In this document: piece after piece, positions 2,799 through 32,009 of the stretch
How the letters are laid out: each line of letters opens with the position of its first letter
Position numbering within the stretch: position 1 is the first letter of the stretch
NCBI GenBank assembly: GCA_027315005.1
Contig: DAHUZT010000049.1
Location: forward strand, 1 to 58,240
DNA: 58,240 nt
Reading direction: 5' to 3'
Source of the DNA: Acidimicrobiaceae bacterium
GTDB taxonomy: Bacteria > Actinomycetota > Acidimicrobiia > Acidimicrobiales > RAAP-2
Notes under the pieces: generated by a model
Seen by the model: the letters and a program-made list of their open reading frames with translations, nothing else
Told to the model about the DNA's origin: nothing
The model's database searches: none
Program-made: the position numbers and the translations under genes

Positions 2799-2865
2799 GA
2801 GACCCCTTTCGACGTTCCGGCCCCGTAGGGGTGCCGGTCGCGTCAGGCAATCGTGCTGATGGGAA

Positions 2866-3366
2866 TCACAGTGTACCCACCGGCTCGACCTCGCCGCGAG
2901 CGGCGGCCACGGCTCGGGGATCGGCCAGGTCGGGGGCCAGCTCGGCCAATGGGGCCATCACGAATCGGCGCTCACGCCAGCGGGGGTGGGGCACGGTGAG
3001 CTCGGGCTCGTCGAGCACGACCCCGTCGATCCAGAGCACGTCGACGTCGAGCGTGCGGGGACCCCACCGCACGTTCCGCACCCGCCCGGCGGCCGCCTCC
3101 AGCCGGTGGCATTCCCTGAGCAGCAGGTGGGGATCGGGTTCGGGTCCGAGAGCCAGCTCGACCACCAGGTTCAAGAAGTGGCTCTGATCTTCGGGGCCCC
3201 CCACCGGCGAGGACTCGTACACCCGGGAGACAGCGACAACCGGCGCCCGGCCACCGGCCCGCAGCTGGTCCACGGCACGGCGCAGGTGGGCCCACCGATC
3301 GCCGAGGTTGGAGCCGAGGCCGAGGAAGGCCCGGAGACGGGGAGGGACCGGCCGGGTGACGCTCAC
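2866..3366 (-). CDS. folK: 6-hydroxymethyl-7,8-dihydropterin pyrophosphokinase (HPPK)
   Basis: FolK transfers pyrophosphate from ATP to 6-hydroxymethyl-dihydropterin, making the substrate of FolP. The 166-residue length is normal. Motifs visible are LGLGSNLGDR near residue 15, SRVYESSPVGG near 46, the acidic ATP-binding RWGPRTLDVDVLW near 99-111 and the VPHPRWRERRFVMAPLAEL block near 124-142. It starts in a 4-base overlap with the folB stop, so folB and folK are translationally coupled. A 67-base gap separates it from the next gene. Confidence 0.96.
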   Translation of the reverse strand: MSVTRPVPPRLRAFLGLGSNLGDRWAHLRRAVDQLRAGGRAPVVAVSRVYESSPVGGPEDQSHFLNLVVELALGPEPDPHLLLRECHRLEAAAGRVRNVRWGPRTLDVDVLWIDGVVLDEPELTVPHPRWRERRFVMAPLAELAPDLADPRAVAAARGEVEPVGTL

Positions 3367-9744: not shown

Positions 9745-10530
9745 ATGGGTCGGCAACCGGGAGCATCGTGGACCATCGAGGGAGGGGCGGCGGTGACGGT
9801 GGCCGCCACCACTGCCGACCTCTGCAGACAGGCGGCCGACGCGGCCGCGGCCGCCCTCCGGGCGGCGGTGGCCGAGCGGGGCCGGGCCCACGCCATGTTC
9901 GCCACCGGGAATTCGCAGCTGGGTATGATCGAAGCCCTGGTCAACCACACCGCGGGTGTGCCCTGGGACAAGACCGTCGTCTTCCACATGGACGAGTATC
10001 TCGGCGTCTCCGACGACCACCCGGCCAGCTTCTGCCGTTGGATCCGCCGGCGCATCGTCGAGCCGGCCCGGCCGGAGGCAGCCCACCTCCTCGACGGGAC
10101 GCTGCCCGCAGACGAGGTCTGCGCGGCCTACAGCCGGCTCCTCGCCACCCACCCTCTCGATCTGTGCTGCCTCGGCATCGGGGAGAACGGCCACCTCGCC
10201 TTCAACGACCCGCCGGTGGCCGACTTCGACGACCCCGCCGACGTGAAGGTGGTGGTGCTCGACCCGCGGTGCCGCCTCCAGCAGGTCGACGAAGGCCATT
10301 TTGCCGCTGTGGCGGAGGTGCCCGAACAGGCGATCACCGTCACCGTCCCCGCCCTCCTCCGGGCCCGGCAGGTGCTGGCCATCGTCCCCGACGCCAGGAA
10401 GGCGGAGGCCGTGCGCGATGCGCTGTCGGGACCGGTCTCCACCTCGTGTCCGGCCTCGGCGCTCCAGCACGCACCCCAGGCCTCGATCTACCTCGACGGC
10501 GATTCCGCCGGCCTCCTCCCGCCCGGGTGA
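9745..10530 (+). CDS. Glucosamine-6-phosphate deaminase / 6-phosphogluconolactonase family protein (NagB-like)
   Basis: The 261-residue protein shows NagB family features: ATGNSQLGMIEAL near the N-terminus (sugar-phosphate loop), VFHMDEYLGV with the catalytic Asp/Glu pair, and CLGIGENGHLAFNDPP. This supports isomerising deamination of glucosamine-6-phosphate to fructose-6-phosphate, or a related sugar-phosphate reaction. The frame stays open far upstream, but the ATG at 9745 follows the divergent sigma gene by about 105 bases and begins the conserved part. It is the only plus-strand gene between 1 and 25 kb. Its 3' end overlaps the convergent hydrolase gene by about 43 bases. Confidence 0.87.
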   Translation: MGRQPGASWTIEGGAAVTVAATTADLCRQAADAAAAALRAAVAERGRAHAMFATGNSQLGMIEALVNHTAGVPWDKTVVFHMDEYLGVSDDHPASFCRWIRRRIVEPARPEAAHLLDGTLPADEVCAAYSRLLATHPLDLCCLGIGENGHLAFNDPPVADFDDPADVKVVVLDPRCRLQQVDEGHFAAVAEVPEQAITVTVPALLRARQVLAIVPDARKAEAVRDALSGPVSTSCPASALQHAPQASIYLDGDSAGLLPPG

Positions 10531-11537
10531 CCGGAGGCCGCCAACCACCGGTCGAGGAAGGGATAGGCCGCGGCCCCGTCCCACCGGTGCTCGCCGTCGA
10601 AGACGTGGTGGACCAGGCGGTCGCCGGCGCCGAGATGGTCGTACAGCACGCGCAGGCGCGCGATTGACGCCTCGGCGGCAGGGAGTGGGAAGAGGAGGTC
10701 GCCCCGGCCCGACTCCACGAGGAGCGGCCGTGGGGCGACCAGGGCGCCGAGGTCGACGTGCTCCATCGACCCGAGCATGGCCGGGAGCACCTGGGACCCG
10801 CACAGGTTCCAGGGAACCCGGTGGGACGCTGCCCACGACGACAGGTATCCGCTGACCACCACCGCAGCCGGTCGGGGATCGACGGCGGCGAGGAAGAGCG
10901 AGGCCGTCCCGCCGTACGAGAAGCCGCAGACCCCGATCCGGGAGGGGTCGACCAGCGGGTGGGCACTGAGGACATCGAGGGCGCGTGCCAGGTCCCACAG
11001 GTTCTGGGTGAGGGGGTTCCAGCCACCCATGATCTGATGGACGAGGTTGGTGTCGCAGCCGTAGTGGTCCGGGGGGTTCCAGTCGGCCCGTTCACCGAAG
11101 CAACGCAGGTCGGGCGCCAGCACCACGTGCCCGCGCCGGGCCAGCTCGGCGGCGTACTCACCGCCCCCGGCGGCGTCCGGCTCCAGGCCGCAGATGAGCG
11201 ACTTCCCCGCACCGTGCCCGTGCACGCAGAGCACGGCTGGCCCGCGACCCTCCCGCCCGTCGGGGACGAGCAAGAAGGCCGGCACCGACATCAGCTCCTC
11301 GGTGTCGAACACGATCCGCTTGCGCACGAAACCGGCACAGTCGGTCTCGTCGGTCTCTTCGACATCGGGGGGGACCGGATCGGGCCACGGAGCCAGCGCC
11401 CCCTCCAGGCGGGATCCGAAGCGCCGGCGCCACTCCTCGAAGGCCGCCGGGTCCTCGGGCAGGCCGTCGTCGTCGGTGGTGGCCGAGAGCCGGCTCACCA
11501 CCTGGAACCACGGAGAGAAGTTGCGCCGGCGTCCCAT
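10488..11537 (-). CDS. Alpha/beta hydrolase (dienelactone hydrolase / acetyl-xylan-esterase-like)
   Basis: This is a 349-residue cytoplasmic alpha/beta hydrolase with the oxyanion-hole strand AVLCVHGHGAGKS (near 101-113), the nucleophile elbow GFSYGG, and a late histidine in FDGEHRWDG. The length and the N-terminal cap resemble abhydrolase_7/acetyl-xylan-esterase-type proteins that deacylate carbohydrates or xenobiotics. The substrate is not evident. It follows the DUF3089 lipoprotein gene by 18 bases and is the last gene of the minus-strand run that includes the Liv-type transporter. The 3' end overlaps the nagB-like gene on the other strand. Confidence 0.85.
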   Translation of the reverse strand: MGRRRNFSPWFQVVSRLSATTDDDGLPEDPAAFEEWRRRFGSRLEGALAPWPDPVPPDVEETDETDCAGFVRKRIVFDTEELMSVPAFLLVPDGREGRGPAVLCVHGHGAGKSLICGLEPDAAGGGEYAAELARRGHVVLAPDLRCFGERADWNPPDHYGCDTNLVHQIMGGWNPLTQNLWDLARALDVLSAHPLVDPSRIGVCGFSYGGTASLFLAAVDPRPAAVVVSGYLSSWAASHRVPWNLCGSQVLPAMLGSMEHVDLGALVAPRPLLVESGRGDLLFPLPAAEASIARLRVLYDHLGAGDRLVHHVFDGEHRWDGAAAYPFLDRWLAASGHPGGRRPAESPSR

Positions 11538-11555: not shown

Positions 11556-12755
11556 TCAGCGACCGGTCGCCTGCACGTAGTGCGAGCTCTGGGCCGCGAC
11601 GTCGGAGACCAGATTGCCGGCCGCGATGTTGACGTCGACCAGGTGCAGCCCCCAGGTCGGAGGCAGCACCCGGCTCAACTCGTCGAGTATCGGCCTCCCC
11701 GAGGGCGCAGAGGCCGAGGCCGAAAGGAAGGTCGCGCCCCCTTTGGCGGTGCAGGTGGCGATGAACCGGTCCGGCCACGACACCCACGGGGTCGCGACCT
11801 TGGGGACGAGAGGAGCGATCCCCGTGCCGACGACCCCACTCAAGCCGGTGAGGTGGGTCGGGACCTCGGTCTCGAGTGACCCCGTCCCTCCTGCGAGCGC
11901 GGCTGGGTTGGTGCACAGCACGTGCTCGCCCGGGCTGGACGTCCGGCCGAAGATGCTGTTCGCCGGGGGCGGCGAGCCGGCCGAGAAGGTCGAGTAGGCG
12001 ATGACGCATCCGGTCTGGCGGGCACTCCGGCAGGCCGGGATGGTGGAGAAGGACCCGCCCTGCGACTTCCCGTCTCGCACAGTGACGTTGCCGCCGAGGA
12101 GGATCGCCGAGACGAGGCGCCGACGAACAGACGGGTTTCCTTCGACGGTCTGGGCGATGAGACGCTCCAGGACGAACGCCCCCTGCGAGTGGCCGATGAG
12201 CACGAAGCCCCTGCCGTCGTTGTAGTGGGTCAGGTAGTCGCGCCAGGCAACGAAGACGTCGCCGTAGGCCTCGGAGGTGTTCACCGGGGTGGTCGCCTGG
12301 CCGGTGAGAGAGGCCAGGGTGGCCTGTCGGTACATGGGGGCATAGACCCGGCACTGTTGGGAGAACGGGGAGGCCTGGGCTGCGGCCACCCCGGTCTCGG
12401 CCGGCTGGACGGCCAGGGTGGCGTTGCCGGTCGTCTCGGTGCTGACCGTGGGGTAGACGTAGAAGCAGTCGATCGGGGGGTCGGTCGCCGGGTGCCGGTG
12501 GACGACGGTCCAGGCACCGTCGGGTCCGATGCTGGTGGTGGTCAGGTTCCCGGCGCAGGGGTCCGAGACCAGTCCGGGGCGGCACAACCACGTCACACCG
12601 GCAGCGTCCACCCGCCCGGTCACGACGGGTGGAGGAACCGGTGCCGCGTTCGATGAGCCACAGGCGCTGACCGACAGGGCGAGGGCGCCGACCACCCACA
12701 GGCTCAGAACGGCCCGCCTGCGGTGTCGAACGACGTCATGCACCGCCCGGGGCAC
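11556..12755 (-). CDS. DUF3089 esterase-like lipoprotein
   Basis: The 399-residue protein has a basic N-terminus, a hydrophobic segment (about 14-30) and a lipobox ending LSVSAC, so it is probably a secreted lipoprotein. The body matches DUF3089, an alpha/beta-hydrolase-like family, with the nucleophile motif FVLIGHSQGAF and the segment DCFYVYPT near the start. The substrate is unknown. Its start overlaps the 3' end of the LivG-type ATPase gene by 20 bases, so it is likely co-transcribed with the transporter. Confidence 0.85.
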   Translation of the reverse strand: MPRAVHDVVRHRRRAVLSLWVVGALALSVSACGSSNAAPVPPPVVTGRVDAAGVTWLCRPGLVSDPCAGNLTTTSIGPDGAWTVVHRHPATDPPIDCFYVYPTVSTETTGNATLAVQPAETGVAAAQASPFSQQCRVYAPMYRQATLASLTGQATTPVNTSEAYGDVFVAWRDYLTHYNDGRGFVLIGHSQGAFVLERLIAQTVEGNPSVRRRLVSAILLGGNVTVRDGKSQGGSFSTIPACRSARQTGCVIAYSTFSAGSPPPANSIFGRTSSPGEHVLCTNPAALAGGTGSLETEVPTHLTGLSGVVGTGIAPLVPKVATPWVSWPDRFIATCTAKGGATFLSASASAPSGRPILDELSRVLPPTWGLHLVDVNIAAGNLVSDVAAQSSHYVQATGR

Positions 12756-13602
12756 CTCCGACGACCGCCCCTCGTGACGGGCTCGGCAGCGCGCCCGAGA
12801 CGGCCAGCGCCTCCTCGCTCGCGCCCAGATAGGCGGCGAGAGCCCGGGGGTCGGCAGCCACCTCCTCGGGGGTGCCGACCGAGACGACCCTGCCCGCCTC
12901 CATCATGACGACCCTCGTGCACAGCTCGAAGACGAGGGGGACGTCGTGCTCGACCAGCACGATGGTGGTGTCCGCCACCTCGTGGAGCCGCCGGAGCAAC
13001 GGCACGAAGGCCTCCGCCTCTCTCTGGGCGATCCCGGCGGTCGGCTCGTCCAAGAGGAGCAGCCGGGGCTGCGCCAGCACGATGGCGGCGAGGTCGACCA
13101 CCCGCCGGGTGCCCGTCGACAGCTCGGCGATACGGAGATGGCGAAACCGGCCTATCCCGAACGCCTCGATGATCCGGTCCACTTCGGAGCGCTTCTCCCG
13201 CTCGGACCGCCGGGCCCAGGGGAGCTGGAGCGTCGACGAGAGGAGACCGACCGGGCGTCGGGCGTCCTGGGTGAGGAGCAGCACCTCCTCGACCTGCAGC
13301 TCCGGAAAGAGCCGGCAGTCCTGAAAGGAACGGACGAGACCCAGGCCGATCCGCTCCTCGGGTAAGTACTCGACCAGGCTGTCGCCGTCGAGCAGCACCG
13401 ACCCCGCCCGGAGGGCGACGATGCCCGAGATGACGTCCAGCATGGTCGTCTTGCCCGATCCGTTGGGCCCGATGAGCCCCACGATGGTCCCGGGCTCGGC
13501 CTCGAGACTGGCACCGTCGACCGCCTTCACCCCGCCGAAGGTGACCAGCGCGTCCTTCACCTCCAGCCTGGCCGGACCGTCCCTCCGAGCAGCTCCGCTC
13601 AC
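12736..13602 (-). CDS. Branched-chain-amino-acid-type ABC transporter ATPase (LivG-like)
   Basis: The 288-residue ATPase has Walker A GPNGSGKTT, Q-loop SFQDCRLFPELQV, signature LSTGTRR (instead of LSGGQ, as often in LivG proteins), Walker B LLLLDEPTAG and switch histidine VEHDV. I chose the GTG at 13602, which overlaps the permease stop by 4 bases (GTGA); the open frame far upstream is antisense-like noise over the permease. It would energise the adjacent fused LivH-LivM permease together with the LivF-type domain of the MFS fusion. The last 25 residues are Gly/Ala/Pro-rich. Confidence 0.92.
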   Translation of the reverse strand: MSGAARRDGPARLEVKDALVTFGGVKAVDGASLEAEPGTIVGLIGPNGSGKTTMLDVISGIVALRAGSVLLDGDSLVEYLPEERIGLGLVRSFQDCRLFPELQVEEVLLLTQDARRPVGLLSSTLQLPWARRSEREKRSEVDRIIEAFGIGRFRHLRIAELSTGTRRVVDLAAIVLAQPRLLLLDEPTAGIAQREAEAFVPLLRRLHEVADTTIVLVEHDVPLVFELCTRVVMMEAGRVVSVGTPEEVAADPRALAAYLGASEEALAVSGALPSPSRGAVVGGAPGGA

Positions 13603-15590
13603 GACACGGCTCCGCCGACCGCCACCGGCTCGAGCGGTTCGTTTCGCTGCGGTCCGGGGGGCACGTCGCTGCGATGCCCGAGACGCTCGATGCCGTCGGT
13701 CACCAGATCGCCGAACCGGTGCAGCAGTTCGGCCAGCCCGCCCGGCAGGTAGAGGATGAAGGCCAGTAGCCCCATCCCACTGGTCAGGAACTGGATGGTG
13801 GAGGTGGTCCCGAAGATGGCCGGGAGCCCGATGAAGTAGAGGGCACCGAGCACCGCCCCCGAGATCGACCCGAGGCCGCCGATCACCACCATCGAGACCA
13901 CCAGGATCGAAAGGCTCGGGTTGAAGGTCGAGGTCGAGATGCGTCCGGTGGCAAAGGCAAGGCACACCCCGGCGTACCCGGCGATGAACCCCGAAAGGGC
14001 GAAGGCCAGGATCTTGCTCCGGGCCAACGGGATCCCCATCGAGCCCGCCCCCACCTCGTTGTCCCGCACCGACATCAAGCGACGGGCCATGCCACGATCG
14101 CGCCACACCGCCACCATCGCCACCGACACCACCAGGACGGCCAGCGAGAACCAGGCAAACGCCTGCTGGGACCCGAGAGCGATGCCGAAGAAGCTCGGAA
14201 CCGGCAGGAGGGTCGACTGGGGATTCGGCAGCCCGCTGCACAGCAGCCGGTGGACGACCGGGAGCGACCAGCAGGGCGTGCCCATCACCGATCCCATCAG
14301 CCACACCCCGAAGGCGAGGGTGCTGACCGCCAGGTACAAGCCGCGCACCCGCAGAGCCGGCAGTCCGATGAGCACGGCCACCACCGCAGTGACCACACCG
14401 GCGAACGGCATGAGGAGGACGATCGGCACGCTCGCACCGAGGTGGGCGGCCATCAGCGCTCCGCAGGCCACCAGGCCGAACTGGCCGAGGGACACCTGCC
14501 CGGCCCAGCCGGTGAGCACGGTGAGCGAGAGGGCGATCACCCCGTAGATGCAGATCTGCGACAGCAGGAAGGACTTGCCGGGGCTGAGGACGAAGGGGAG
14601 CAGCGCCACCACCACGATGGTCGCCATCACCCCGGCCCTGCCGACGCCGCGCCGGAGCGGGGTGTCGTGCCGGAGCTGGCTCGCCGATCCCGCGATCCAC
14701 GACGAGCGCTCCTCGGTGCGCGCCCCCTTCTGGAGCGCGGCGATGCGGACGAGCAGCACGGCGGAGACGATGAGGAAGAGCACCAGATCGACCTGGGTGA
14801 TACTGCTCAGGTTCCACACCAGGATCTCCTGGATCACGCCGACGGCGATGGCGGCCACGAACGCGACGGTGAGGTTCACCATGGCCCCGACCATCGCCGC
14901 GGTCAGGCCGAGGAGCAGCAGTTCGGGGCTCAACACCTGGGTGAGCGAGGAGGTCTGCCCCGGTGCCGCCAGGATGGCGGTGAAGGCGGAGAGCACGCCG
15001 GCCAGGATCCACGCCATGGTCGAGGCGCGCCGCACCCACACCCCCGAGAGGCGGGCGGAGTCGCTGTTCTCGGCCATGGCCCGCATGGCCAGACCCCACG
15101 GTGACCACCGGACGAAGGCGGCCAGAGCGATCGCCACCACGGGTGCCACGATGAGGGTGAGCACCTGCCCGGGGGTGACGATGGTGGTACCGATGTGGAA
15201 CGACAGGTCGAAGGGAACCGGAAAGGCACGGTAGAGGTTCTTCGGTCGGATGAAGGGCAGCGCGGTGAACACGAAGAGGAGCTGGCTGAGCCCGATGGTG
15301 GCCACCATCACCAGCACGCGTGATCGGTTGAACAGCCGGCGGAGCAGCAGCTCGCTCACCGCTCCCACCGCGCCGGCCATGGCGACCGCGAGCACCAGCG
15401 AGAACCAGTAGTCGAACCCGAAGTCGAAGAAGCACTTGGCCAGGAAGACCGCCGCCACCACGCCGAGCTGGCCCTGAGCGAAGTTGAGCACACGCGTGGT
15501 CCGGTAGATGAGCACCAGCCCGAGGGCGAGCAAGCCGTACCCCAGCCCGATGACGACTCCCTGGAAGAGGACGGAGCTCGGGACCGACAT
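13599..15590 (-). CDS. Fused LivH-LivM type ABC permease
   Basis: A single 663-residue membrane protein contains both permease subunits of a Liv-type transporter. Residues 1-285 match LivH (YGLLALGLVLIYRTTRVLNFAQG near the N-terminus). Residues about 310-640 match LivM (LTVLTGWAGQVSLGQFGL, then MSVRDNEVGAGSMGIPLAR, GGLGSISGAVLGALYF). Each half carries about eight hydrophobic segments. A charged linker of about 40 residues joins the halves. It lies 9 bases after the MFS-LivF gene and overlaps LivG by 4 bases. No solute-binding protein is adjacent. Confidence 0.93.
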   Translation of the reverse strand: MSVPSSVLFQGVVIGLGYGLLALGLVLIYRTTRVLNFAQGQLGVVAAVFLAKCFFDFGFDYWFSLVLAVAMAGAVGAVSELLLRRLFNRSRVLVMVATIGLSQLLFVFTALPFIRPKNLYRAFPVPFDLSFHIGTTIVTPGQVLTLIVAPVVAIALAAFVRWSPWGLAMRAMAENSDSARLSGVWVRRASTMAWILAGVLSAFTAILAAPGQTSSLTQVLSPELLLLGLTAAMVGAMVNLTVAFVAAIAVGVIQEILVWNLSSITQVDLVLFLIVSAVLLVRIAALQKGARTEERSSWIAGSASQLRHDTPLRRGVGRAGVMATIVVVALLPFVLSPGKSFLLSQICIYGVIALSLTVLTGWAGQVSLGQFGLVACGALMAAHLGASVPIVLLMPFAGVVTAVVAVLIGLPALRVRGLYLAVSTLAFGVWLMGSVMGTPCWSLPVVHRLLCSGLPNPQSTLLPVPSFFGIALGSQQAFAWFSLAVLVVSVAMVAVWRDRGMARRLMSVRDNEVGAGSMGIPLARSKILAFALSGFIAGYAGVCLAFATGRISTSTFNPSLSILVVSMVVIGGLGSISGAVLGALYFIGLPAIFGTTSTIQFLTSGMGLLAFILYLPGGLAELLHRFGDLVTDGIERLGHRSDVPPGPQRNEPLEPVAVGGAVS

Positions 15591-15599: not shown

Positions 15600-17813
15600 T
15601 CAGCCGATCCCCGCGACGGAGGCGCCGAGGAAGACCGGTCGCAGGAGGTCACCACGTTCGAGCAGATCGCCGGTGGGCCCGTCGAAGCGCACTTCTCCGC
15701 GCTCGATGAAGATGGCCCGTGGGGCCAGGCTCATCGTCCGGTTGACGCTCTGCTCGACGAGCAGCACGGTGGTGCCCCCTGCATTGATCTCACGGACGAT
15801 CCCCATCAGCCGGTCGACCGCCATGGGGGCGAGACCGAGGGCCAGCTCGTCGATGAGCAGGAGCTTCGGCTCGGTCATCATGACCCGGGCCAGGGCCAGC
15901 ATCTGCTGTTCGCCGCCCGACAGCGTGCCCGCCGGCTGGTCGAGCCGCGCGGCGAGCTCGGGGAACCGGTCGACCGCCACGTCAAGGGCGGAGCGTGAAC
16001 GCTCCCGCTGCTGTCGCAGGGAGTAGGCGCCCACCCGGAGGTTGTCGCGCACCGTCATCCCGGGGAAGGTCATCTTGCCCCCGACCAGGAGGGCCACGTC
16101 CAGCCCCAGGATCTGCTCGGGCTCGAGGAAGGTCGAGGTGATCCCGTTGATCCGGATCACCCCGCGGTGGGGATGCTCCAGCCCGGCGACGGCCCTGAGG
16201 AGGGTGGACTTCCCCGCTCCGTTGGTCCCGAGGAGGCCCACGATCTCCCCCTGGGCGATTTCGAGGTTGACGTCGAACAGCACCTGGTTGGAGCCGTAGT
16301 AGAAGTCGAGGTTGTGGACCTGAAGGGCGGGTACGTCCCGGCCTGCCTGGCGACGCTTCCCCTCGGCGTGCCGCTCGAGCACGTCCTCGATGACGAGTGT
16401 GATGTCACGACGGACGTAGCGCGAGCCGACCATCAGCAACACGCCGCCCACCGCGCAGACCGGGCCGATCAGGGTGAGCGCCACCGTCGGCCCGTGTAGG
16501 TACCCGACGGCATCGCTGATCGCACCCAGCAGCACGGCTCCGGTGAACCCCCCGAACACCAGGGCGTAGACGCCGAACATGGCGAAGCAGATGGTGCGCA
16601 TCTCCGGCGGGGCGGTGGCGGCCAGGGTGAGGAAGATGCAGATGGACAGAGGTGCCACCGCTGCGTTGGCCAGGAACTGGAGGGCGACCACCATCCAGAG
16701 GTTGGGCATGTAGAGGGAGGTGACGAACAGGGCGCCGTATGCGGTGATGCACGCACCGGCCACCACCAGCGGCCTCTGGGGGGCCTTGCGGAAGTAGCGG
16801 TCCCCGAGAACGTAGGCCACCGGCAGTCCGAGGAAGGCGGCCAGCCCGATGATCGAGTACACCTCGCTGCGTTGCGCGGTGTCGAGGCCCCAGGTCCGGG
16901 TGAAGTAGAGATTGCCGAACAGGGGCCCGCCGGTCCCGGCGAAGCCGAGGATGGCGACCGCCACCAGCTCGAAGTAGACGGTGCGGATCCGCAGCAGCCT
17001 GGTGACCGCTGAGCCGAGGAGCACCCGGGGTGCCTCCCCCTGCTGGGAGTGGATGTCCATGCCCGACGCCCGCAGGATGTGGCTGGCTTCGTTCTGCCCC
17101 TTGTCCGGTTCGCGCATCCGGAAGAGGGAGAACCCGATGGGAAGCCCGATCAGGCCGATCAGCATCGCCCATCGCCAGTCGTGATGGACACTTGCCAGAA
17201 GACCGAAGGCCAGGATGCCGACGGTGAGGGAGATGGGATCGGCGAGGTTGTGCCAGCTGAAGATCCGGCCGCGCCCTTCGGTCGGGTAGGCGTCGGCGAG
17301 ATACGAGTTGTGCACGGTGTCGCTGAGGCTGAAACCGACCGACGCCACCAGATAGAGGAATGTGAAGGCCCACACGTTGGGGGACAGCGCCATCAGCGGG
17401 GCGAAGATGGAGAAGACGATGAGCCCGACAGCGGCTACCGTACGTCGGCTGCCACGGTCGGCCCACAGCGCCAGGGGGACCGCCCACAAGAGCTGGGCGA
17501 CGGCCGCCACGAAGACGACGGCGCCGAGGGCTGCGTCATGGATGTGGAACGACCGCTCGAGGTTGGTACCGATGAGCGAGATGCCGTTGCCGAAGGTGTC
17601 GGGCACGATGGCCGCCGCGGTCAACAGCGCCAGCGGAAGATAGCCGTACTGACGGAGGATGCCGGCAAGTGCGGGAGGCTTCCCTTCCCCCGTCCCGGGG
17701 ATGACATCCAGGTCGGCTATGAGCTCGGGGTCGCGGGTCTTCTCGACGACCTCCTTCAGGAGCTCGTCGGGAACTGCGAAGTCGAACAGCGGTTGCTCCC
17801 CCATGCGGTGCAC
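15600..17813 (-). CDS. MFS transporter fused to a LivF-type ABC ATPase
   Basis: The 737-residue protein joins two normally separate transporter types. Residues about 55-465 form an MFS-like membrane domain with about 12 hydrophobic segments and a motif-A-like LALWADRGSRRTV (115-126). Residues about 496-737 are a LivF-type nucleotide-binding domain with Walker A GTNGAGKST (529-537), Q-loop, signature LSGGEQQMLALARV, Walker B LLLIDELALGL and VEQSV. A basic linker (VRRDITLVIEDVLERHAEGKR, about 467-486) connects them. It begins the transporter operon, followed 9 bases later by LivH-LivM. The start could be the ATG at 17813 or the one at 17804. The frame is continuous with no sign of error. Whether the MFS part transports or only anchors is unknown. 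Confidence 0.9.
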   Translation of the reverse strand: MHRMGEQPLFDFAVPDELLKEVVEKTRDPELIADLDVIPGTGEGKPPALAGILRQYGYLPLALLTAAAIVPDTFGNGISLIGTNLERSFHIHDAALGAVVFVAAVAQLLWAVPLALWADRGSRRTVAAVGLIVFSIFAPLMALSPNVWAFTFLYLVASVGFSLSDTVHNSYLADAYPTEGRGRIFSWHNLADPISLTVGILAFGLLASVHHDWRWAMLIGLIGLPIGFSLFRMREPDKGQNEASHILRASGMDIHSQQGEAPRVLLGSAVTRLLRIRTVYFELVAVAILGFAGTGGPLFGNLYFTRTWGLDTAQRSEVYSIIGLAAFLGLPVAYVLGDRYFRKAPQRPLVVAGACITAYGALFVTSLYMPNLWMVVALQFLANAAVAPLSICIFLTLAATAPPEMRTICFAMFGVYALVFGGFTGAVLLGAISDAVGYLHGPTVALTLIGPVCAVGGVLLMVGSRYVRRDITLVIEDVLERHAEGKRRQAGRDVPALQVHNLDFYYGSNQVLFDVNLEIAQGEIVGLLGTNGAGKSTLLRAVAGLEHPHRGVIRINGITSTFLEPEQILGLDVALLVGGKMTFPGMTVRDNLRVGAYSLRQQRERSRSALDVAVDRFPELAARLDQPAGTLSGGEQQMLALARVMMTEPKLLLIDELALGLAPMAVDRLMGIVREINAGGTTVLLVEQSVNRTMSLAPRAIFIERGEVRFDGPTGDLLERGDLLRPVFLGASVAGIG

Positions 17814-17880: not shown

Positions 17881-17958
17881 GCGGTGAGGTCGATCAGGCC
17901 GGTCGAGCGGTGAGGTCGATCAGGCCGGTCGAGCGGTGAGGTCGATCAGGCCGGCGGC
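17881..17958. repeat. 26-bp tandem repeat at the kinase 3' end
   Basis: Three tandem copies of a 26-base unit beginning gcggtgaggtcgatcagg are present; the third diverges in its last bases. The copy inside the coding region encodes the last residues of the FGGY kinase and the stop codon falls in the middle copy, so the outer copy is a duplicated gene end. Confidence 0.9.
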
Positions 17959-19320
17959 CACCGTATCGGCCGAAGGACGCAGTCGCTCGTAGGCGGAGAC
18001 CGCCTCGGGTGCGGGCTCCAGGGTGTGCGCCACCGGGTCGAGACGGTCGACACTCCAGGAGAGGCCGACGGCCGATGCGGCCACCAGGGCGGCGCCGACC
18101 GAGGCGGCCTGACCCGAGCGTCGGCAACGGACGGCAAGTCCGGTGACGCCGGCGAGCACCTCGCGCCACACCGGGATGACGGCTCCGCCACCGGCGAGTG
18201 CCAGACCGGTCGACACCGATCCGGGATCCATGAGCGTCAGGCAGCGCGCGATGTCACGGGCCACGGACTCGAAGACGGCCCGTGACAGCTCGGCCGCCCC
18301 GTGGGCCGAAGAGATCCCGACGAAGGCGGCTCCGGCGTCGTCGCGCCACCACGGGGCCCGGGCCCCGTCGAGCCACGGCGCCGCGGTCACCCCGGCGGCT
18401 CCGGGGGGACAACCTGCCGCCATCGAAGCCAGCTCGGCCGGCGTTCGACCGGTGAGCATGCCCAGCCACCCGAGCATCGAAGAGGCCGCGGCAAGCCCCC
18501 CTTCGAGCAGCCATCCGCCGTCGATGGCCCGGGAGGTGACCAGCCCGTCCGGGACGGGGTCCGGACGTTCGGGTTGCGGGCGCGACACGTTCGCTGTCGT
18601 GCCCCAGCTCACCATCGGGACCGACGGATGGGCCCCGCTTCCGGTCACTTCACAGGCACGGTCGCCACCGCCGATGACGACCGGGGTGCCGGAGGCCACG
18701 CCGAGCTCGCCGGCGATGGTGGTGGACAGGCCCCCGAGCATGCACTCGGGTACCACGACCGGAGGGAGCTTTCCCGCGACCCCACCGGTCATCGACGCGA
18801 TCGGCAGGCCGTGCCGGTCGTAGACGCCACTCACCGAGGCCATGGTGGCATCGGTCGCCACCCGGTCGGTGAGCCACCAGGCCACCCGGTCCCGCGCCCC
18901 GAGGACCCAGGTGGCAGCCGCGAGATCCTCGGGGCGGTGGCCCTCGAGCCAGGCCAGCTTGGCGGCCACCGGGGCGAGCTCGGCCGTGCCGGCCCTCCGG
19001 CCCGCTCCGGCCGGGGCCCGGCGGTCGGACCAGATCAGGGCGGGTCCGAGGGGGGCTCCGTCGCGGTCGAAGAGCCCGACGCTCTGTCGGGCGCCGGTGA
19101 GCCCGATCGCCTGGATGGCCCCCCATCGCCGGTCGACCCCGCTCCGCAGGCGGGCACAGGCCTGTCCGGCTGAATCGCACCAGGCCCGGGGGTTCTGTTC
19201 GGCCCGGCCCGGAGCTGGGTGCGAGGTCTCGAGCGGGACCCCTTCCATGCCGACCATGCCGGTCCCATCCCACAGCACCGCCTTGGTCACGCTGGTACCG
19301 AGGTCGATGGTGAGGATCAC
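17920..19320 (-). CDS. FGGY-family carbohydrate kinase (xylulokinase-like)
   Basis: The 466-residue protein begins with the FGGY ATPase phosphate-1 motif (ILTIDLGTSVTKAV, catalytic-fold Asp at 6), has QAIGLTGARQSVGL and LIWSDRRA, the later IGGGDRACEVTGSG and SWGTTANVS, and the adenosine motif LALAGGGAVIPVWREVLAG near 390. It should phosphorylate a sugar, sugar acid or polyol. I chose the GTG at 19320, which overlaps the aldolase stop by 4 bases (GTGA). Together with the upstream dehydrogenase and aldolase it looks like a three-enzyme sugar-acid or polyol pathway. The C-terminus is encoded by a 26-bp tandem repeat. Confidence 0.9.
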   Translation of the reverse strand: MILTIDLGTSVTKAVLWDGTGMVGMEGVPLETSHPAPGRAEQNPRAWCDSAGQACARLRSGVDRRWGAIQAIGLTGARQSVGLFDRDGAPLGPALIWSDRRAPAGAGRRAGTAELAPVAAKLAWLEGHRPEDLAAATWVLGARDRVAWWLTDRVATDATMASVSGVYDRHGLPIASMTGGVAGKLPPVVVPECMLGGLSTTIAGELGVASGTPVVIGGGDRACEVTGSGAHPSVPMVSWGTTANVSRPQPERPDPVPDGLVTSRAIDGGWLLEGGLAAASSMLGWLGMLTGRTPAELASMAAGCPPGAAGVTAAPWLDGARAPWWRDDAGAAFVGISSAHGAAELSRAVFESVARDIARCLTLMDPGSVSTGLALAGGGAVIPVWREVLAGVTGLAVRCRRSGQAASVGAALVAASAVGLSWSVDRLDPVAHTLEPAPEAVSAYERLRPSADTVAAGLIDLTARPA

Positions 19321-20084
19321 CGGCCGTGCACGATCCCGGCGAGCTCGGCGGCGATGACCGCTGGGGATGGCTCGAGCAGGACAGCCCGGCCGATGGCCAG
19401 GCCGGCGGCCCCACCCGCCATCGCGTCGCGTGCCTCGGTCAGGGCCCCGGCGGAACCGTTGTCGCGGTGGGGACCGCCGAGGAACAGCACGGGAACGCCG
19501 ACGGCTGCGACCACCCGGGCCACCGCGTCCGTCCGGGCCCCGCCGGGTGGCTCGTCGGGGACGGGCACCTTGAGCAGCGGGGCTCCGAGGTCGTGGGCGA
19601 TCACCGCCGCCAGGACGATGTCGTCGGTCAGACGTGACATCCGGCCGTCGCGCCAGCACACCGGCTCGATCATGGCGTCGAGCCCGGCATCGGCCGCATC
19701 CTCCAGGACCTGGCCCAGCAGCTCGAGTGCCGCCGCGCCGTGCTCGTCGTCGAAGGCGATGCGGGTCATGTGCTTGACCCCGGTCCAGCCGTCGGCCGCC
19801 GCCCGGACCACGGTGGCCACCAGCCGGTCGTCCAGCTCGAAGGCGGCGCCTGCAAGTCCGGTGCGGTTGATCGACAGGTAGGTCCGCTGTTCGGGGACGA
19901 GGGCGCCCGAACGGGCCAGCTCGCCGAGAGGCTGGGCGGTGGCAAGGATGCCGTCGCAGCTGGGGAGGGCCGCCCGCAGCGCCGACAGGTAGTCGGCGTA
20001 GCTTTCGATGGTCATCACCCCCCGCGCGCGGTGGTCGGCCGCAAGGACGAGGGCCGGTACCGGCAGCCGGGTGGGGACGGTCAT
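19317..20084 (-). CDS. Class I aldolase-like (beta/alpha)8 protein (DeoC/LacD/FbaB type)
   Basis: The 255-residue protein looks like a single (beta/alpha)8 barrel of the DeoC/LacD/FbaB aldolase group: it starts ALVLAADHRARGVM, has GVKHMTRIAF and a strand LLKVPVPDEPP carrying a candidate Schiff-base lysine, and ends with LFLGGPHRDN and GLAIGRAVL phosphate-binding loops. It would cleave a phosphorylated sugar or sugar acid. The ATG at 20084 overlaps the dehydrogenase stop as TGATG, and the kinase GTG overlaps its stop, so the three genes are tightly coupled. The exact substrate is not deducible. Confidence 0.82.
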   Translation of the reverse strand: MTVPTRLPVPALVLAADHRARGVMTIESYADYLSALRAALPSCDGILATAQPLGELARSGALVPEQRTYLSINRTGLAGAAFELDDRLVATVVRAAADGWTGVKHMTRIAFDDEHGAAALELLGQVLEDAADAGLDAMIEPVCWRDGRMSRLTDDIVLAAVIAHDLGAPLLKVPVPDEPPGGARTDAVARVVAAVGVPVLFLGGPHRDNGSAGALTEARDAMAGGAAGLAIGRAVLLEPSPAVIAAELAGIVHGR

Positions 20085-20971
20085 CAATCCAGGCCGGAGA
20101 GCGCGAAGATCACCTTGGCCATCGACGAGAAGTCCTGGCGGCCGTACCCCGCGACGGTGGCGGAGGTGAGTGTCTGCCGGGCGGCAGCCGTCCCGGTCAT
20201 TGGCACCCCGGCCCGAGTCGCATAGGAAAGCGCCAGATCGAGGTCCTTTGCCATGAGATCGGTCATGAACCCGGGTAACCACCCGTTCGTGGCAGGGCTG
20301 TCCTCCACGACGCCGGCCACCGGGAGCCGGGTGCGCACGGCCGTGCAATCACCGGTGGCGTGGGTCAGGACCTCGTGGAGCTTCTTCGGGTCCACCCCCG
20401 ACTTTCTGGCAAGCGCAGTGGCCTCGGCGGTGGCCTGCATCTGGGCGGCATAGACGAGGTTGTTGCAGAGCTTCACCACCTGGCCCATGCCGGCTCCCCC
20501 TACGTGGACCACGAGCCCGGCGAACGGGTCGAGCGCGGGACGGACCTCGTCCAGGGTCCGGCCCTCGCCCCCGACCATCAAGGTGAGGGTGCCCGCCTCG
20601 GCTCCGGCCGTGCCGCCCGACAGCGGGGCGTCGAGGAACCCGGCACCGGTCACGCCCACCCGATCGTGCTGGTCACGGGCGACGTCGGGATCGATGGTCG
20701 AGCAGTCCACAACCGTCTTGCCCGGCCCGAGGGCGGGGAGCATCGCCTCCACGACCTCGGCCACCTGGGGCGAGCTCGGGACACAGAGGAAGACAACGGT
20801 CGCCGCTTCCGCCACGGCCAGGGGGTCTCTCCCGGCAAGGGCACCGAAGGCCACAGCCTGCTCGACCGGACTCGGACTGCGTGAGGCCACCGTCACCTGG
20901 TGGCCCGCGCCGAGCAGGTGGCGGGTGATGGGCAGGCCCATGGCCCCAAGTCCGATGAAGCCGAGTCGCAT
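20084..20971 (-). CDS. Beta-hydroxyacid dehydrogenase (3-hydroxyisobutyrate dehydrogenase family)
   Basis: The 295-residue NAD(P)-dependent enzyme has GFIGLGAMGLPITRHL at the N-terminus (dinucleotide fold), FLDAPLSGGTAGAEAGTL (substrate-binding signature), the catalytic lysine in GQVVKLCNNLVYAAQM, and KDLDLAL near the C-terminus. Family members oxidise 3-hydroxyisobutyrate, D-glycerate/tartronate semialdehyde or four-carbon sugar acids such as threonate. Placement immediately before an aldolase and an FGGY kinase favours a sugar-acid substrate (inference). The start has a clean GGAGG upstream. It overlaps the aldolase by one base. Confidence 0.9.
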   Translation of the reverse strand: MRLGFIGLGAMGLPITRHLLGAGHQVTVASRSPSPVEQAVAFGALAGRDPLAVAEAATVVFLCVPSSPQVAEVVEAMLPALGPGKTVVDCSTIDPDVARDQHDRVGVTGAGFLDAPLSGGTAGAEAGTLTLMVGGEGRTLDEVRPALDPFAGLVVHVGGAGMGQVVKLCNNLVYAAQMQATAEATALARKSGVDPKKLHEVLTHATGDCTAVRTRLPVAGVVEDSPATNGWLPGFMTDLMAKDLDLALSYATRAGVPMTGTAAARQTLTSATVAGYGRQDFSSMAKVIFALSGLD

Positions 20972-21048: not shown

Positions 21049-22401
21049 TCAGCGGTCGGCGGCGAACGGGAGCCAGGCCTCGGTGCCCCCCAGCAGCTCC
21101 GCCACCATCTGCTCGGTGCGGTGGAGGTCCCCCCGACCGGCCAGCGGGTCCAGGAGGAACGCGGCCCCGGCAAGCGAGCGGTCACGCTCGAGCGCGGCGG
21201 TCACCGTGAGCTCCTGCACGGCAACGTGTCGGCGGACGAGCTCGGCGAAGGGTGTGGGCAGCGGGGCGACGTCCCGGCCCCTGATCCCGGACCCGTCGAC
21301 CACGCAGATCGACTCGACCACTGCGCCCTTCGGCGCGTCGGGCACCTGGCCGGCATTGGGAATGTTGCAGGGGAGCTCCCGTGCTTCGCCGGTGAGCAGC
21401 GAGTCGATCACCTGAGCCGGCAATTCGCCGGAGAACCAGGTCTGCAAAGGCTTGGTCCCGGCCAACCAGGCATCCACGTCGGCGATGTAGCCGTCCTGAT
21501 GCTTCTGGCGCTCGGCAATCGAGGTCAGCTCGATGTTGTAGCTGCCGCCCTGGCCCGACTCCTCGGTGAGAACCCAGGGCACGAACTCGGCGATGTGGCG
21601 GTCGCCGGCGGCGGGAAGGGCGCCCCACCGGTCGAGCAGTGTGAGCTTGAGCACATGGCGGCGCACGAAGTCGAGTGTCGAGAAGTCCTCGGCCGCCTCG
21701 CGGCCGGGAGAGGGGGCGAGCGATGGCAGCCCGCCGGCATCTTCGACCCAGCGGCGCAGGATCTCGAACCCGTCCTCACCCTCGACCCGGAGCTCGGTGA
21801 CCACGGGGAGGTGGTTCACCCCGGCCACCGTGGTCGTGATGGCATCGACCGGACTCCCGAGGGCCAGTGCGAAGTCGATGACCCAGTTGCCCACCTCGTG
21901 GCACAGCCCGACCGCCTTGATGCCCGTCTGGCGGAGGACGGCACGGGTCAGACAGGTCATCGGATTGGTGATGTTGAGCATCCAGGCCTCCGGACACAGC
22001 TCCTCCATGTCCCTCGCCATGCCGAGCAGGACGGGCACGTTGCGGAGGGCTCGGTTGATCCCTCCCGGACCGACCGTGTCGCCCACAGACTGGTGGATCC
22101 CGTAACGGGCGGGAACGTCGAGGTCGACTGCCATCGAGCCGAACCCACCGGTCGAGATGGTCACGATCACGAAATCGGACCCCTCCAGGGCCTCGCGCTG
22201 GTCGGTGGTGGTAGTGATCGTGGCGCCGGAACCGAGTGCCTGGTTCACCATGTCGCCGAGCGCCCGCATCTTCTCGAGCGGCGCCGGTTCGACGTCCTCC
22301 AGCACGATGTGTGCCCCCTCGAGCGACGCGGTGCTCAGCAGATCGGCCAGGAGCTCGGGCGTCCACTGGTAACTACCACCGCCGACGATGGTGATCTGCA
22401 T
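21049..22401 (-). CDS. Glycoside hydrolase family 4 (alpha-glucosidase / 6-phospho-beta-glucosidase type)
   Basis: GH4 enzymes use NAD and a divalent metal to cleave glycosides by a redox mechanism. The 450-residue protein has the Rossmann start QITIVGGGSYQWTPEL, a DFVIVTISTGGFGSM strand, the metal-binding NITNPM (asparagine of GH4) and the CHEVGN motif, plus GVNHLPVV. I chose the ATG at 22401, where the Rossmann fold begins; the frame is open 11 codons further upstream. A perfect 14-bp palindrome lies about 40 bases upstream. It belongs to the sugar-catabolic run with GH1 and the dehydrogenase/aldolase/kinase genes. Substrate and phospho-dependence are not deducible. Confidence 0.88.
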   Translation of the reverse strand: MQITIVGGGSYQWTPELLADLLSTASLEGAHIVLEDVEPAPLEKMRALGDMVNQALGSGATITTTTDQREALEGSDFVIVTISTGGFGSMAVDLDVPARYGIHQSVGDTVGPGGINRALRNVPVLLGMARDMEELCPEAWMLNITNPMTCLTRAVLRQTGIKAVGLCHEVGNWVIDFALALGSPVDAITTTVAGVNHLPVVTELRVEGEDGFEILRRWVEDAGGLPSLAPSPGREAAEDFSTLDFVRRHVLKLTLLDRWGALPAAGDRHIAEFVPWVLTEESGQGGSYNIELTSIAERQKHQDGYIADVDAWLAGTKPLQTWFSGELPAQVIDSLLTGEARELPCNIPNAGQVPDAPKGAVVESICVVDGSGIRGRDVAPLPTPFAELVRRHVAVQELTVTAALERDRSLAGAAFLLDPLAGRGDLHRTEQMVAELLGGTEAWLPFAADR

Positions 22402-22438
22402 GGCTTCAGATTCTCCCGTTGGGGAAATGGGCATGACC

Positions 22439-22554: not shown

Positions 22555-24075
22555 TCAGCGCCCGGGAGGGTCGCCGTGTGCTCCCTCGCGGGCCCACGAG
22601 ATCAGCGCACGGTAGGCACCGGCCGAGTCGCGCCCCTGGGCATCGGTGTCCAGCCACCGGAACCCGCGAGGGCCACGCGCTCGATCGATGCCGAAGATCC
22701 CGAACCGCGGCTCGTAGGAGCCCCACTCGTAGTTGTCGACCAAGGACCAGTGCAGATACGCCCTGACCGGGCAGGAAGCGGCCACGGCAGCCACCACCGA
22801 GTCGACGTGCTGGCGAAGATAGCGGGGCCGGTCCCAGCCGTCTGTGCGCGGGTAGGAGCGTCCGTTGTGCACCCGGCTGCACAGCCCGTTCTCCACGATC
22901 CAAAGGGGGAGAGCCGGCAGCAGGGAGTGCTGGTCGTGGCACCACCGGGCCATGGCCTCTGGGTCGGGAGGCACGTCCCAGAGTGCCCGGGAAGGCTCGA
23001 AGCGGCGCCCGCCGGAGCTCTGGTGCCCTGGAAGGCGGAGGGCGTGGCTGGCCACCGGGTCGTACCAGTCGAATCCGGTGGTGTCGAGCGGCCGTTCGTC
23101 GGGCCCTCCATAGACGGCGTCGAGCACCCGGCGTCGCGAGGGTCGGCGCAACCTCGACCGGACCGGCGCCGTCCGGCCGGGGCGCATCGCTGCGCCGTAG
23201 GGCGAAGACGCCGCGAACAGGCGTCGCAGCATCGCCTCGCCCCGACCGGCGGGCGGGAACAAGGTGTCGTGCCGGTCCCGGCGATCGTCGAGGTAGGCGT
23301 CGACCCCGTCTCGTTCCACACCGGCGGACCGGACGGTCAACAGATCGGTGAGCATCCGGTCGTGCTCGTAGATCGAAGAGGAGCTCGTGTTGACCGTGAC
23401 TTCGGCGTCGGGCTGGGCAGCGTGGATCTCCCGGAAGGCGAGCACATGGGCGGTGAGCAGATGGTCGAGCGCGGTGAAGGCCTCGGGCACGGCGATCCTG
23501 CGCCCGGGCGGGCAGTCACCTTGGATCCAGCCCATGAGGGCGACGATGTTGGGCTCGTTGATGGTGATCCAGCGGCGGCAGCGGGGCACGAGGGCGGGCA
23601 GTACCCGGGACACGTGGGCCGAGAAGCGATCCGGCGCGTCGTCCTCCAACCAGAATTCCTCTCCCAGCCACCCAGGATGGGTGAAGTGGTGCAGGGTGAC
23701 GATCGGTTCGAGGCCACGTTCGTGACAACCGTCGAGGATGCGGCGGTACCCGTGGAGTGCCTCGGCGTCGAAGTCGCCCTCCACCGGCTCCAGCCGGGCC
23801 CACTCGACCGACAGGCGGAAGGCGTTGCAGCCCATGGCCGCGGCCCGGTCCAGCGCTACCTCGGGCTCGCGCCAGAAGTCGCAGGCGTTGCCCGAGGGCT
23901 CGATCCGGCCACTGCGCTCCCACCGTTCCCAGTTGTTGGCCGGCTCTCCCGGCCCGTTGTACCCGCCTTCGACCTGGAATCCGGCGGTGGCCACGCCGAA
24001 GAGGAAGTCGTCCGGCAGCGCGATGGGAGGACGGGGCCCGGTGATCATCTCCGCCTCACTGCTGGACAGCTCCAC
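22555..24075 (-). CDS. Glycoside hydrolase family 1 (beta-glucosidase-like)
   Basis: The 506-residue protein has the GH1 (beta/alpha)8 layout: FLFGVATAGFQVEGG near 24-38, FRLSVEWARLEP, the acid/base motif TINEPN with E174, and the nucleophile motif IVENGL near 415, followed by YLHWSLVDNYEW. It would cleave beta-glucosides or beta-galactosides. No signal peptide is seen, so it acts in the cytoplasm. It starts 13 bases after the GH43-like lipoprotein gene. An unusual insertion of about 60 residues (arginine-rich, near 275-330) interrupts the barrel between the two catalytic residues. Confidence 0.92.
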   Translation of the reverse strand: MELSSSEAEMITGPRPPIALPDDFLFGVATAGFQVEGGYNGPGEPANNWERWERSGRIEPSGNACDFWREPEVALDRAAAMGCNAFRLSVEWARLEPVEGDFDAEALHGYRRILDGCHERGLEPIVTLHHFTHPGWLGEEFWLEDDAPDRFSAHVSRVLPALVPRCRRWITINEPNIVALMGWIQGDCPPGRRIAVPEAFTALDHLLTAHVLAFREIHAAQPDAEVTVNTSSSSIYEHDRMLTDLLTVRSAGVERDGVDAYLDDRRDRHDTLFPPAGRGEAMLRRLFAASSPYGAAMRPGRTAPVRSRLRRPSRRRVLDAVYGGPDERPLDTTGFDWYDPVASHALRLPGHQSSGGRRFEPSRALWDVPPDPEAMARWCHDQHSLLPALPLWIVENGLCSRVHNGRSYPRTDGWDRPRYLRQHVDSVVAAVAASCPVRAYLHWSLVDNYEWGSYEPRFGIFGIDRARGPRGFRWLDTDAQGRDSAGAYRALISWAREGAHGDPPGR

Positions 24076-25276: not shown

Positions 25277-25331
25277 ACGTTCCCGAGCGTAGCCCGGCGG
25301 TCGACCCTGGAACCCGACTCACCGGGGGCTA

Positions 25332-27020: not shown

Positions 27021-27076
27021 GCCACCGGTGAGCTACCCCGGCTGGGCCCCTCCCGACCCTTCGCTAGGCTCGGTCG

Positions 27077-30467: not shown

Positions 30468-32009
30468 TCACGGAGAAAGCGTCGGCAGCGGTTGCCACGA
30501 CCGCACCTGGACCCAGCAGGTCCCCTGGGGGACGTGGTCCTTCGGCATCTTGCACTGCGATGAGGGTGGCTGGTTGACGTGCAGGCGGACCACCTGGTAC
30601 TCGGTCGGCCCGTAGTGCTTGTTGGGACCGTAGCTGAGGATCGGTGAGTAGGTCCCCGGGTAGTTGTTGATTTTCGACATCGCCGTCACGAACGTCCGCC
30701 GGTTCAGATTCCGTCCAGCGGCCCTCGCCGCGGTGGCGAACAGGTTGATCACCTGGCACCATCCGGCGATCGGTCCCTGTTCCTCGATGTAGGGGGTGCT
30801 GTTGCCCGGTGGCACCTGGGGGTAGGCCTTGTGCCACACCTTGTAGCAGGCTCGGACCCCGGGGTCGTAACCTCCCTGGCTCTGCGGCCGGTTGTCGTCG
30901 ATGCCGCCGAGGGTCATGGTGGTCACGCCCTCCTGACCATTGAGCGCCTTGGCGTAGGGAATTGGGATGAGGCCCAAGGCTACCTGGATCGAGGATTCGT
31001 AGTCGCTCAGCAGCAGGCGGGGAAAGTACTGCTGGGATGTCTGGGCCTGGAGGAGCGGGTAGAACACGTTGAACGGAATGAGCGGGATGATCGAGTTGAC
31101 CCCGTCCGCCCGGAGCTGCTGGATGATCACCGGTGCCTCCGCCCCGGTCGTGGCCGTGTCGTTGGGGTTGGCGTCGATGGACTCGACCACCGGGGTCACC
31201 CCGATCTTTCGGAGGTCCGGGAGGAGGTAGTCCTGGAAGGCGAGCTGGTCCGAGGCGCGGTTGCCGACGATCACACCTACCTTGCGTGCTCCCCCCAGCA
31301 GCTTGGCGCTCTTCCCCCACGACACCACCGCGGCCAGCACGGCCGCCTGGTCCGGTCCGGTCCACCACAGATACGGTGATCCGAGGTTGGTCCAGTCGGT
31401 CACCGTCGACCACTGGCCGATGAAGGGGGTGTGCCCTTCCTGGGTGATGCACAGCTGGTTGGAGTCTTGCCAGGTGCCGAGACCATCGAGCACGGCGAAG
31501 GCGGCCGGCGACCCTTCGGTCCACGTCTTGCACAGAGCACGCATATCGGACGAGCTGGCCGGATCGTAGGTCTGGATGATCGGATTGATCGTCCGCCCGT
31601 TGATACCGCCGTGGTCGTTGATGTGCTTGACGAACAGGCGGATCGCCTTCTGTTGCTCACCGTACTCGACGTCCTGGGCGAAGCCCTCCTTGCCAGCGAG
31701 CGAGGTCAGGGACACCACGGGAAAGACCACGTTGATGGAGTTGCCGACCACTCCCCGTGATGACGTGCTGGCCCGGTCCACGGGCACCGCCCGGGTGCTC
31801 GAGGCCCCTCCCGTCGAAAGACCACCGGCCGCCGCCTGGGCCGACACCGAAGTGGACGACGGAGCGATGGCCACGTACGCCACCAAGCCGACCACGACCG
31901 CGACCACGATGGCCACTGTCCGCAACCGGGTCGCCGGCGAACGTCGGACGAAGTGCCCCCAGGACCGTGCGAGTGCCGAGAGAGGGTTCCAGCGCGCCCA
32001 GCCGCTCAT
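30468..32009 (-). CDS. Liv-type ABC transporter substrate-binding protein (type 1 periplasmic-binding fold)
   Basis: The 513-residue protein has a membrane segment at about 30-50 and then a type 1 periplasmic-binding body: INVVFPVVSLTSLAGKEGF, the linker AIRLFVKHINDHGGINGR, KVGVIVGNRASDQLAFQDY and GPIAGWCQVINLF. There is no lipobox cysteine after the membrane segment, so it is anchored by an uncleaved helix rather than as a lipoprotein. LivJ-type binding proteins normally lie next to their permease; here the nearest Liv-type permease genes are 15 kb away and lack one, so partnership is plausible. Upstream is a 377-base gap with an 8-bp tandem repeat. Confidence 0.87.
   Translation of the reverse strand: MSGWARWNPLSALARSWGHFVRRSPATRLRTVAIVVAVVVGLVAYVAIAPSSTSVSAQAAAGGLSTGGASSTRAVPVDRASTSSRGVVGNSINVVFPVVSLTSLAGKEGFAQDVEYGEQQKAIRLFVKHINDHGGINGRTINPIIQTYDPASSSDMRALCKTWTEGSPAAFAVLDGLGTWQDSNQLCITQEGHTPFIGQWSTVTDWTNLGSPYLWWTGPDQAAVLAAVVSWGKSAKLLGGARKVGVIVGNRASDQLAFQDYLLPDLRKIGVTPVVESIDANPNDTATTGAEAPVIIQQLRADGVNSIIPLIPFNVFYPLLQAQTSQQYFPRLLLSDYESSIQVALGLIPIPYAKALNGQEGVTTMTLGGIDDNRPQSQGGYDPGVRACYKVWHKAYPQVPPGNSTPYIEEQGPIAGWCQVINLFATAARAAGRNLNRRTFVTAMSKINNYPGTYSPILSYGPNKHYGPTEYQVVRLHVNQPPSSQCKMPKDHVPQGTCWVQVRSWQPLPTLSP

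Follow-up and report, generated by a model that had tools for sequence, protein, structure and literature searches.

A Spinster-like MFS domain in one frame with the LivF ATPase of a branched-chain-type ABC importer in Actinomycetota

Primary transport, driven by ATP, and secondary transport, driven by gradients, are usually treated as separate. ArsA-ArsB is a case of a carrier that is able to work with an ATPase partner, but its folds are unrelated to those described here and it involves no fusion with an ABC importer. In this work we analysed a window of 58,240 nucleotides, by which we mean the whole stretch of DNA, taken from a draft genome of 3.06 Mb (G000, contig 69). On its reverse strand a LivF ATPase carries a 12-TM MFS domain in the same open frame, next to a fused LivH-LivM permease (LivHM). 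The system shares LivH-LivM, LivG and LivF with intact motifs, and probably a LivK-type binding protein, with the HAAT (LivFGHMK) importers, but differs from them in the MFS domain borne by LivF, in the frequent fusion of LivG as well, and in the sugar-catabolic cluster in which the genes of the window group are found. The closest solved relatives of the MFS domain, by profile and by fold, are the Spinster proteins (HnSpns 6e8j and SPNS2), with which it has the motif A charge relay in common. Unlike these, the window type has no equivalents of D41, R122 and E129, and an ABC ATPase is added at the C-terminus. Two more copies exist in the same genome, on contigs 100 and 48 (C100 and C48). They share the MFS-LivF unit beside LivHM, but each is an MFS-LivF-LivG single chain in which LivG is fused behind LivF, and their identity to the window protein over the MFS stretch is 24 and 26%. 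Judged by its parts, the system adds a Spinster-like MFS to a HAAT importer, and we have not found this combination described: among the papers covered, as judged by title and the start of the abstract and with many subscription papers outside the coverage, there was no MFS-LivF or MFS-ABC ATPase fusion. A full secondary-carrier fold whose distance from an ABC ATPase is nearly constant across a conserved family would be a natural system for testing the coupling of the two kinds of transport.

The window protein is encoded by 737 codons in an open frame (table 1). Pfam assigns residues 80-414 to MFS_1 (5e-32 for the protein) and residues 513-656 to ABC_tran (1.7e-28), while among the NCBIfam models UrtE and LivF are the best for the ATPase part, both under the cut-off. 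The Walker A, signature and Walker B motifs of LivF are intact, and the ATPase motif residues are found in 68-70 of 70 fused proteins. A Walker B ending in DEL instead of DEP was considered as a marker of the fused clade and was dropped because three ordinary LivF proteins of the same genome also have DEL. The genes for MFS-LivF, LivHM and LivG are tightly spaced: the start of LivHM, preceded by GGAGG, lies 9 bases past the stop of the fusion, and the GTG of LivG, whose identity was assigned by Pfam, overlaps the stop of LivHM.

Table 1. Coordinates of the described features in the window (residue numbers are those of the MFS-LivF protein; fractions are counts among 15 window-type loci)
Feature	Position	Strand	Remarks
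alpha/beta-hydrolase esterase	10488..11537	-	recurs in 9/15
LivG ATPase	12736..13602	-	Pfam; start within LivHM stop
LivH-LivM permease, fused	13599..15590	-	663 aa; two PF02653 stretches
MFS-LivF fusion protein	15600..17813	-	737 aa; MFS domain ~57-470, helical junction ~470-497, LivF ATPase 497-737
Walker B LLLIDE	15846..15863	-	residues 651-656
ABC signature LSGGEQQ	15903..15923	-	residues 631-637
Walker A GTNGAGKS	16206..16229	-	residues 529-536
junction from TM12 to ATPase, helical	16311..16394	-	residues 474-501
MFS motif A ADRGSRR	17442..17462	-	residues 118-124
FGGY sugar kinase	17920..19542	-	start approximate; 14/15
Cgl0159/DeoC-LacD-type aldolase	19317..20132	-	start approximate; 12/15
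3-hydroxyisobutyrate-dehydrogenase-like reductase	20084..20971	-	13/15, either strand
GH4 glycosidase	21049..22434	-	13/15
GH1 glycosidase	22555..24075	-	
LivK-type substrate-binding protein (PF13458)	30468..32009	-	close relative of those beside MFS-LivF in related genomes

The first-pass annotation of this DNA had described an MFS domain and a LivF ATPase in one frame beside a fused LivH-LivM, and had raised the question whether such fusions always occur together with LivHM and LivG. The fusion and its fused neighbour are borne out by the Pfam domains and by a scan with domain profiles of 77 distinct loci, from which eight duplicate contigs had been removed. MFS and LivF are found in one frame in 70 of the 77 loci, including two (L127 and L144) in which the contig ends inside LivF. 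LivHM adjoins 68 of these 70 fusions, and in the remaining two (L127 and L129) the contig ends in the fusion. Homologues encoded by two separate genes had been named as evidence that would speak against a true fusion, and among the 77 loci there was no case of MFS and LivF as an ordinary pair of individual genes. Four loci have an MFS without LivF (L145, L148, L168 and L172), and these also have no LivHM nearby. In L086 a contig end cuts the MFS before LivF and LivHM adjoins. A frame break inside LivF is seen in L079 (1605-4644) and L087 (3-2070), with the rest of the ATPase in a second frame and LivHM adjoining in both; the break is either an error or a real split.

LivH and LivM share one frame in 69 of the 77 loci. 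The single frame extends from the MFS through LivF to LivG in 37 of 77 and from LivHM to LivG in 13 of 77, with L122, L150 and L151 having a domain partly in another frame or split, and LivG is a separate gene in most window-type loci. These fusions lend strong support to the earlier suggestion that the ATPase domain would pair with LivG and LivHM, and they would give one MFS, LivF, LivG, LivH and LivM per complex. An ordinary LivHM fusion of 636 aa is also found on a Variovorax plasmid. For the history of the ATPase, a quick tree was built from 76 LivF sequences, of which 68 are fused (at least 215 residues) and 8 stand alone. A branch with a support of 98 separates the fused LivFs together with the stand-alone LivF of L136, the closest stand-alone sequence to the fused clade, from the seven other stand-alone LivFs, and a branch that splits all fused from all stand-alone sequences has a support of 28 only. 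Within the fused side, one branch of 27 contains the window type and another of 39 contains the single-chain types and a few others. The tree fits a single fusion event and does not prove it. The L136 locus has, at positions 1-3098, an ordinary set of LivH, LivM, LivG and LivF that includes no MFS, and immediately downstream of this set comes a LivHM / MFS-LivF-LivG pair.

The junction of these proteins is of near-fixed length. Counted from the Asp that ends TM12 (residue 470) up to the Gly with which Walker A begins, it spans 58 or 59 residues in 62 of 70 fused proteins, 58-60 in 66 of 70, and 59 throughout the 15 window-type proteins. As a control, the distance between the H-loop of LivF and the Walker A motif of LivG was measured in 34 single-chain proteins, and this distance varies from 97 to 160 residues (SD 14.5). 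The ATPases themselves are near-constant, with 157 residues from Walker A to the H-loop in 52 of 68 LivFs and 173 in 33 of 34 LivGs. The Asp that opens the junction is D in 70 of 70 fused proteins; it can be seen by eye in the MFS-only relatives as well and is therefore independent of the fusion. In an AF2 model of the fusion (pLDDT 83, pTM 0.73), TM12 and the junction form one helix, residues 449-489. In-frame start codons occur within the junction of 65 of 70 proteins, and in 27 of 70 there is one that follows a Shine-Dalgarno-like 4-mer; internal initiation could therefore yield a free LivF in addition.

The MFS domain modelled alone (pLDDT 84.9, pTM 0.83) has human SPNS2 structures as its ten best matches in the PDB, and later matches include, among others, HnSpns, DgoT, SV2A, Spns1 and G6PT. 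By sequence profile, 6e8j (HnSpns) is the top hit for the MFS. When the whole fusion model was used with Foldseek, the 50 best matches listed were ABC proteins, with no MFS among them. In HnSpns, D41 and E129 act as proton switches with R122 as a buried partner, and D87-R91-D142 form a charge relay of the cytoplasmic gate (PMC9440201; PMC13192786, preprint). In HnSpns numbering, the window type has no acid at 41 (0/15), no arginine at 122 (0/15) and no acid at 129 (0/15), and it has the gate residues D87, R91, D142 and R149 in 15 of 15 each. Among the 58 other fused proteins, a set that includes L079, L086 and L087, there is D or E at 41 in 41, R122 in 42 and an acid at 129 in 6, and the gate residues D87, R91, D142 and R149 are present in 52, 58, 56 and 51. 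D41 and R122 are each present in 5 of 5 MFS-only relatives, and an acid at 129 in 0 of 5. We had considered the loss of E129 to be a consequence of the fusion, and dropped this idea because the acid is missing in the MFS-only relatives too. Displaced acids could replace the missing switch residues. Of the 15 window-type proteins, 2 have an acid at another place in TM1 and 6 have one at position 133, and the protein of the window belongs to both groups. Position 133 is also acidic in 16 of the 58 other fused proteins and in 3 of 5 MFS-only relatives. In nine of the 15 window-type proteins, positions 38, 41, 129 and 133 all lack an acid and the residue at 122 is not basic.

Conservation of the pore helices was examined as possible proof of transport, and this was not borne out over the 70 fused proteins: TM1, 4, 7 and 10 are no more conserved than the outer helices TM3, 6, 9 and 12 (0.471 versus 0.468), and within the window type there is a slight excess only (0.856 versus 0.805). 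The dN/dS of the MFS part lies between 0.047 and 0.179 in ten pairs, within the range of the Liv domains, and by this measure the MFS is under purifying selection like the Liv parts. Pairwise MFS distances follow those of LivF, LivH and LivM (r 0.80, 0.87 and 0.87 in the 59 loci with all five domains), and 0 of 999 permutations gave a correlation as high. Two of the MFS-only proteins, in L168 (8647-11700) and L172 (7837-9780), are nested inside clades of fused proteins in a quick tree of 78 rows, and a topology that groups the five MFS-only rows in one clade is rejected (p-AU 0.002). No LivF or LivHM was found in the stretch fetched for either of them. The ATPase may possibly have been lost in these two lineages, and their position suggests MFS domains that were freed from LivF and retained; the MFS thus seems able to persist without Liv.

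Starting from the observed anatomy, co-occurrence, near-fixed junction and gene setting, we tentatively favour a composite of an ABC importer and a rigidly docked MFS that acts as a built-in second transport path; the assembly, the transport by the MFS and the substrate are what we infer. The complex would contain a complete branched-chain-type (HAAT) importer of binding protein, LivH-LivM, LivG and LivF, with one Spinster-like MFS domain carried by the N-terminus of LivF. As TM12 is predicted to run on as one helix into the ATPase, the MFS would be docked at a fixed geometry, one per complex. ATP hydrolysis by LivF and LivG would drive uptake through LivHM, and the MFS, with its cytoplasmic gate kept, would most likely offer the same class of nutrient, or a by-product of it, a second route. 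The retained gate together with the missing switch residues of the window type suggests an MFS that still moves without being driven as Spinster proteins are. Several points stand against this reading, namely the switch residues (0/15), the pore helices without excess conservation, the internal starts, the binding protein 14.5 kb away and the 25 of 77 loci in which none was detected.

The first-pass annotation had offered anchoring, transport and export of a product as roles of the MFS, and the same missing residues raise the question whether it transports at all. It might serve as a membrane anchor or as an assembly or sensing domain that carries nothing, keeps LivF in place at LivHM and perhaps has a stabilising or regulatory effect on the importer. 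That none of the 15 window-type proteins has any of the three proton-switch residues at its usual place, that the pore helices show no extra conservation over the whole family and that the junction is near-fixed would all suit such a silent role. It is harder to reconcile with the gate, kept throughout the window type and in 51-58 of the 58 others, with the TM1 acid and the TM4 arginine in the majority of the other fused proteins, and with the MFS-only relatives within fused clades. We regard it as rather unlikely, and prefer the built-in second path.

It is possible, if quite improbable, that ATP hydrolysis by LivF and LivG drives the MFS itself. The TM12 helix would then transmit the movement of the ATPase to the gate, and the carrier would now be ATP-driven, perhaps in exchange with LivHM. 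The continuous helix with its near-fixed spacing fits this idea, as does a gate that is retained where the usual proton-switch residues are missing, but the TM1 acid is retained by 41 and the TM4 arginine by 42 of the 58 other fused proteins, and we know of no MFS that works by ATPase-driven gating. Another reading, to which we give little credence, is a transporter of a new class whose single ABC ATPase pair would serve two unlike paths simultaneously, LivHM being coupled as usual and the MFS through the rigid TM12-ATPase helix, with proton coupling traded for mechanical or exchange coupling. The domains might also be joined for equal expression only, so that the MFS and the Liv importer would be two independent transporters of one pathway. 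The catabolic neighbourhoods which they have in common and the two lineages with an MFS alone within fused clades are in line with this, but a junction of near-fixed length, set against the variable stretch between LivF and LivG, is not, and we place it lower again, as improbable. An assembly or frame artefact, for which the breaks in L079 and L087 (2 of 77) and the draft assembly of the window could be cited, is very improbable given a single frame in 70 of 77 loci, including the single-contig genomes G402, G091 and G076, and a fusion on an Embleya replicon recorded as complete. The single MFS-LivF frame of the window is confirmed as real and extends far past the window; chance read-through in GC-rich DNA is excluded by its recurrence, by the near-fixed junction with its invariant Asp and by the low dN/dS of the MFS part.

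The investigation of the taxonomic distribution shows that the family is widespread in the window's order. With a profile of the three MFS domains of the window's genome, 19 of 61 genomes of the family matched at 1e-40, and the five other genomes of the window's genus among these 61 gave no match. A profile of 20 MFS domains matched 21 of 396 genomes of the phylum. Outside the window's own genome, loci were fetched for 27 of 28 places of the family scan and 41 of 45 of the phylum scan. In the order, an 18-row profile found the MFS family in at least 150 of 298 genomes, with at most five candidates per genome scored, and among the matches listed all but four lie in open frames of at least 700 codons, which fits a fusion by length evidence alone. 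The MFS family may therefore be an important nutrient route in this order, and its members are presumably annotated as plain MFS or Liv parts. In the GTDB species collection, a window-type alignment yielded 14 loci, all titled as Acidimicrobiaceae, Acidimicrobiales, Actinomycetes or Actinomycetota metagenome assemblies, and by title 8 of the 14 come from palsa or bog samples. Plasmid records were the material searched outside Actinomycetota. One of 72,556 covers at least 80% of the fusion, and the same record is found with the window's MFS. In the locus L178 (NZ_CP108785.1) the fusion is on a 5.7 Mb replicon of Embleya sp. NBC_00888 which is listed as a plasmid, adjoined by LivHM-LivG and a binding protein.

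Of the 77 loci, 52 have a LivK-type binding protein, in 51 cases no more than 9 kb away; some of these were detected by low scores, and some are encoded on the opposite strand. The system would thus amount to a complete importer with an MFS in addition. The profile scan of the fetched loci detected no binding protein in 25 of 77. In the window the candidate lies 14.5 kb upstream of the fusion and shares its strand. Its score is 667 on a profile of the adjacent binding proteins of related genomes, in which it is itself included; those proteins reach 658.

Neighbouring genes were counted in the 15 window-type loci on either strand and uncorrected for contig ends (table 1). Since these loci share sugar-catabolic genes, the substrate of the window type is probably a sugar, a sugar acid or a glycoside. 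In some of the other loci acyl-CoA ligases, thiolases, CoA transferases or amidohydrolases are found nearby, and substrates may therefore differ across the family. The first-pass annotation had placed a DUF3089 lipoprotein and an esterase in the operon. The esterase does recur, but the DUF3089 protein was rejected as a component of the system, because it has no relative among the neighbouring frames compared and is not conserved beside the relatives of the fusion. In the window it lies at 11556-12755, between LivG and the esterase, and its N-terminus is lipoprotein-like by eye. A frame of the alpha-amylase family (GH13) at 27813-29891 belongs to the same cluster and strand, and for three further frames of the sugar cluster (395, 551 and 226 aa, within 24089-27691) neither Pfam nor NCBIfam gave a match at the thresholds applied. 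At 9768-10530 on the forward strand there is a frame which is glucosamine-6-phosphate deaminase-like by eye. A LarA-type gene of the lactate racemase family is found upstream of MFS-LivF in 11 of the 15 window-type loci (L118-L126, L128 and L129), the window not being one of them.
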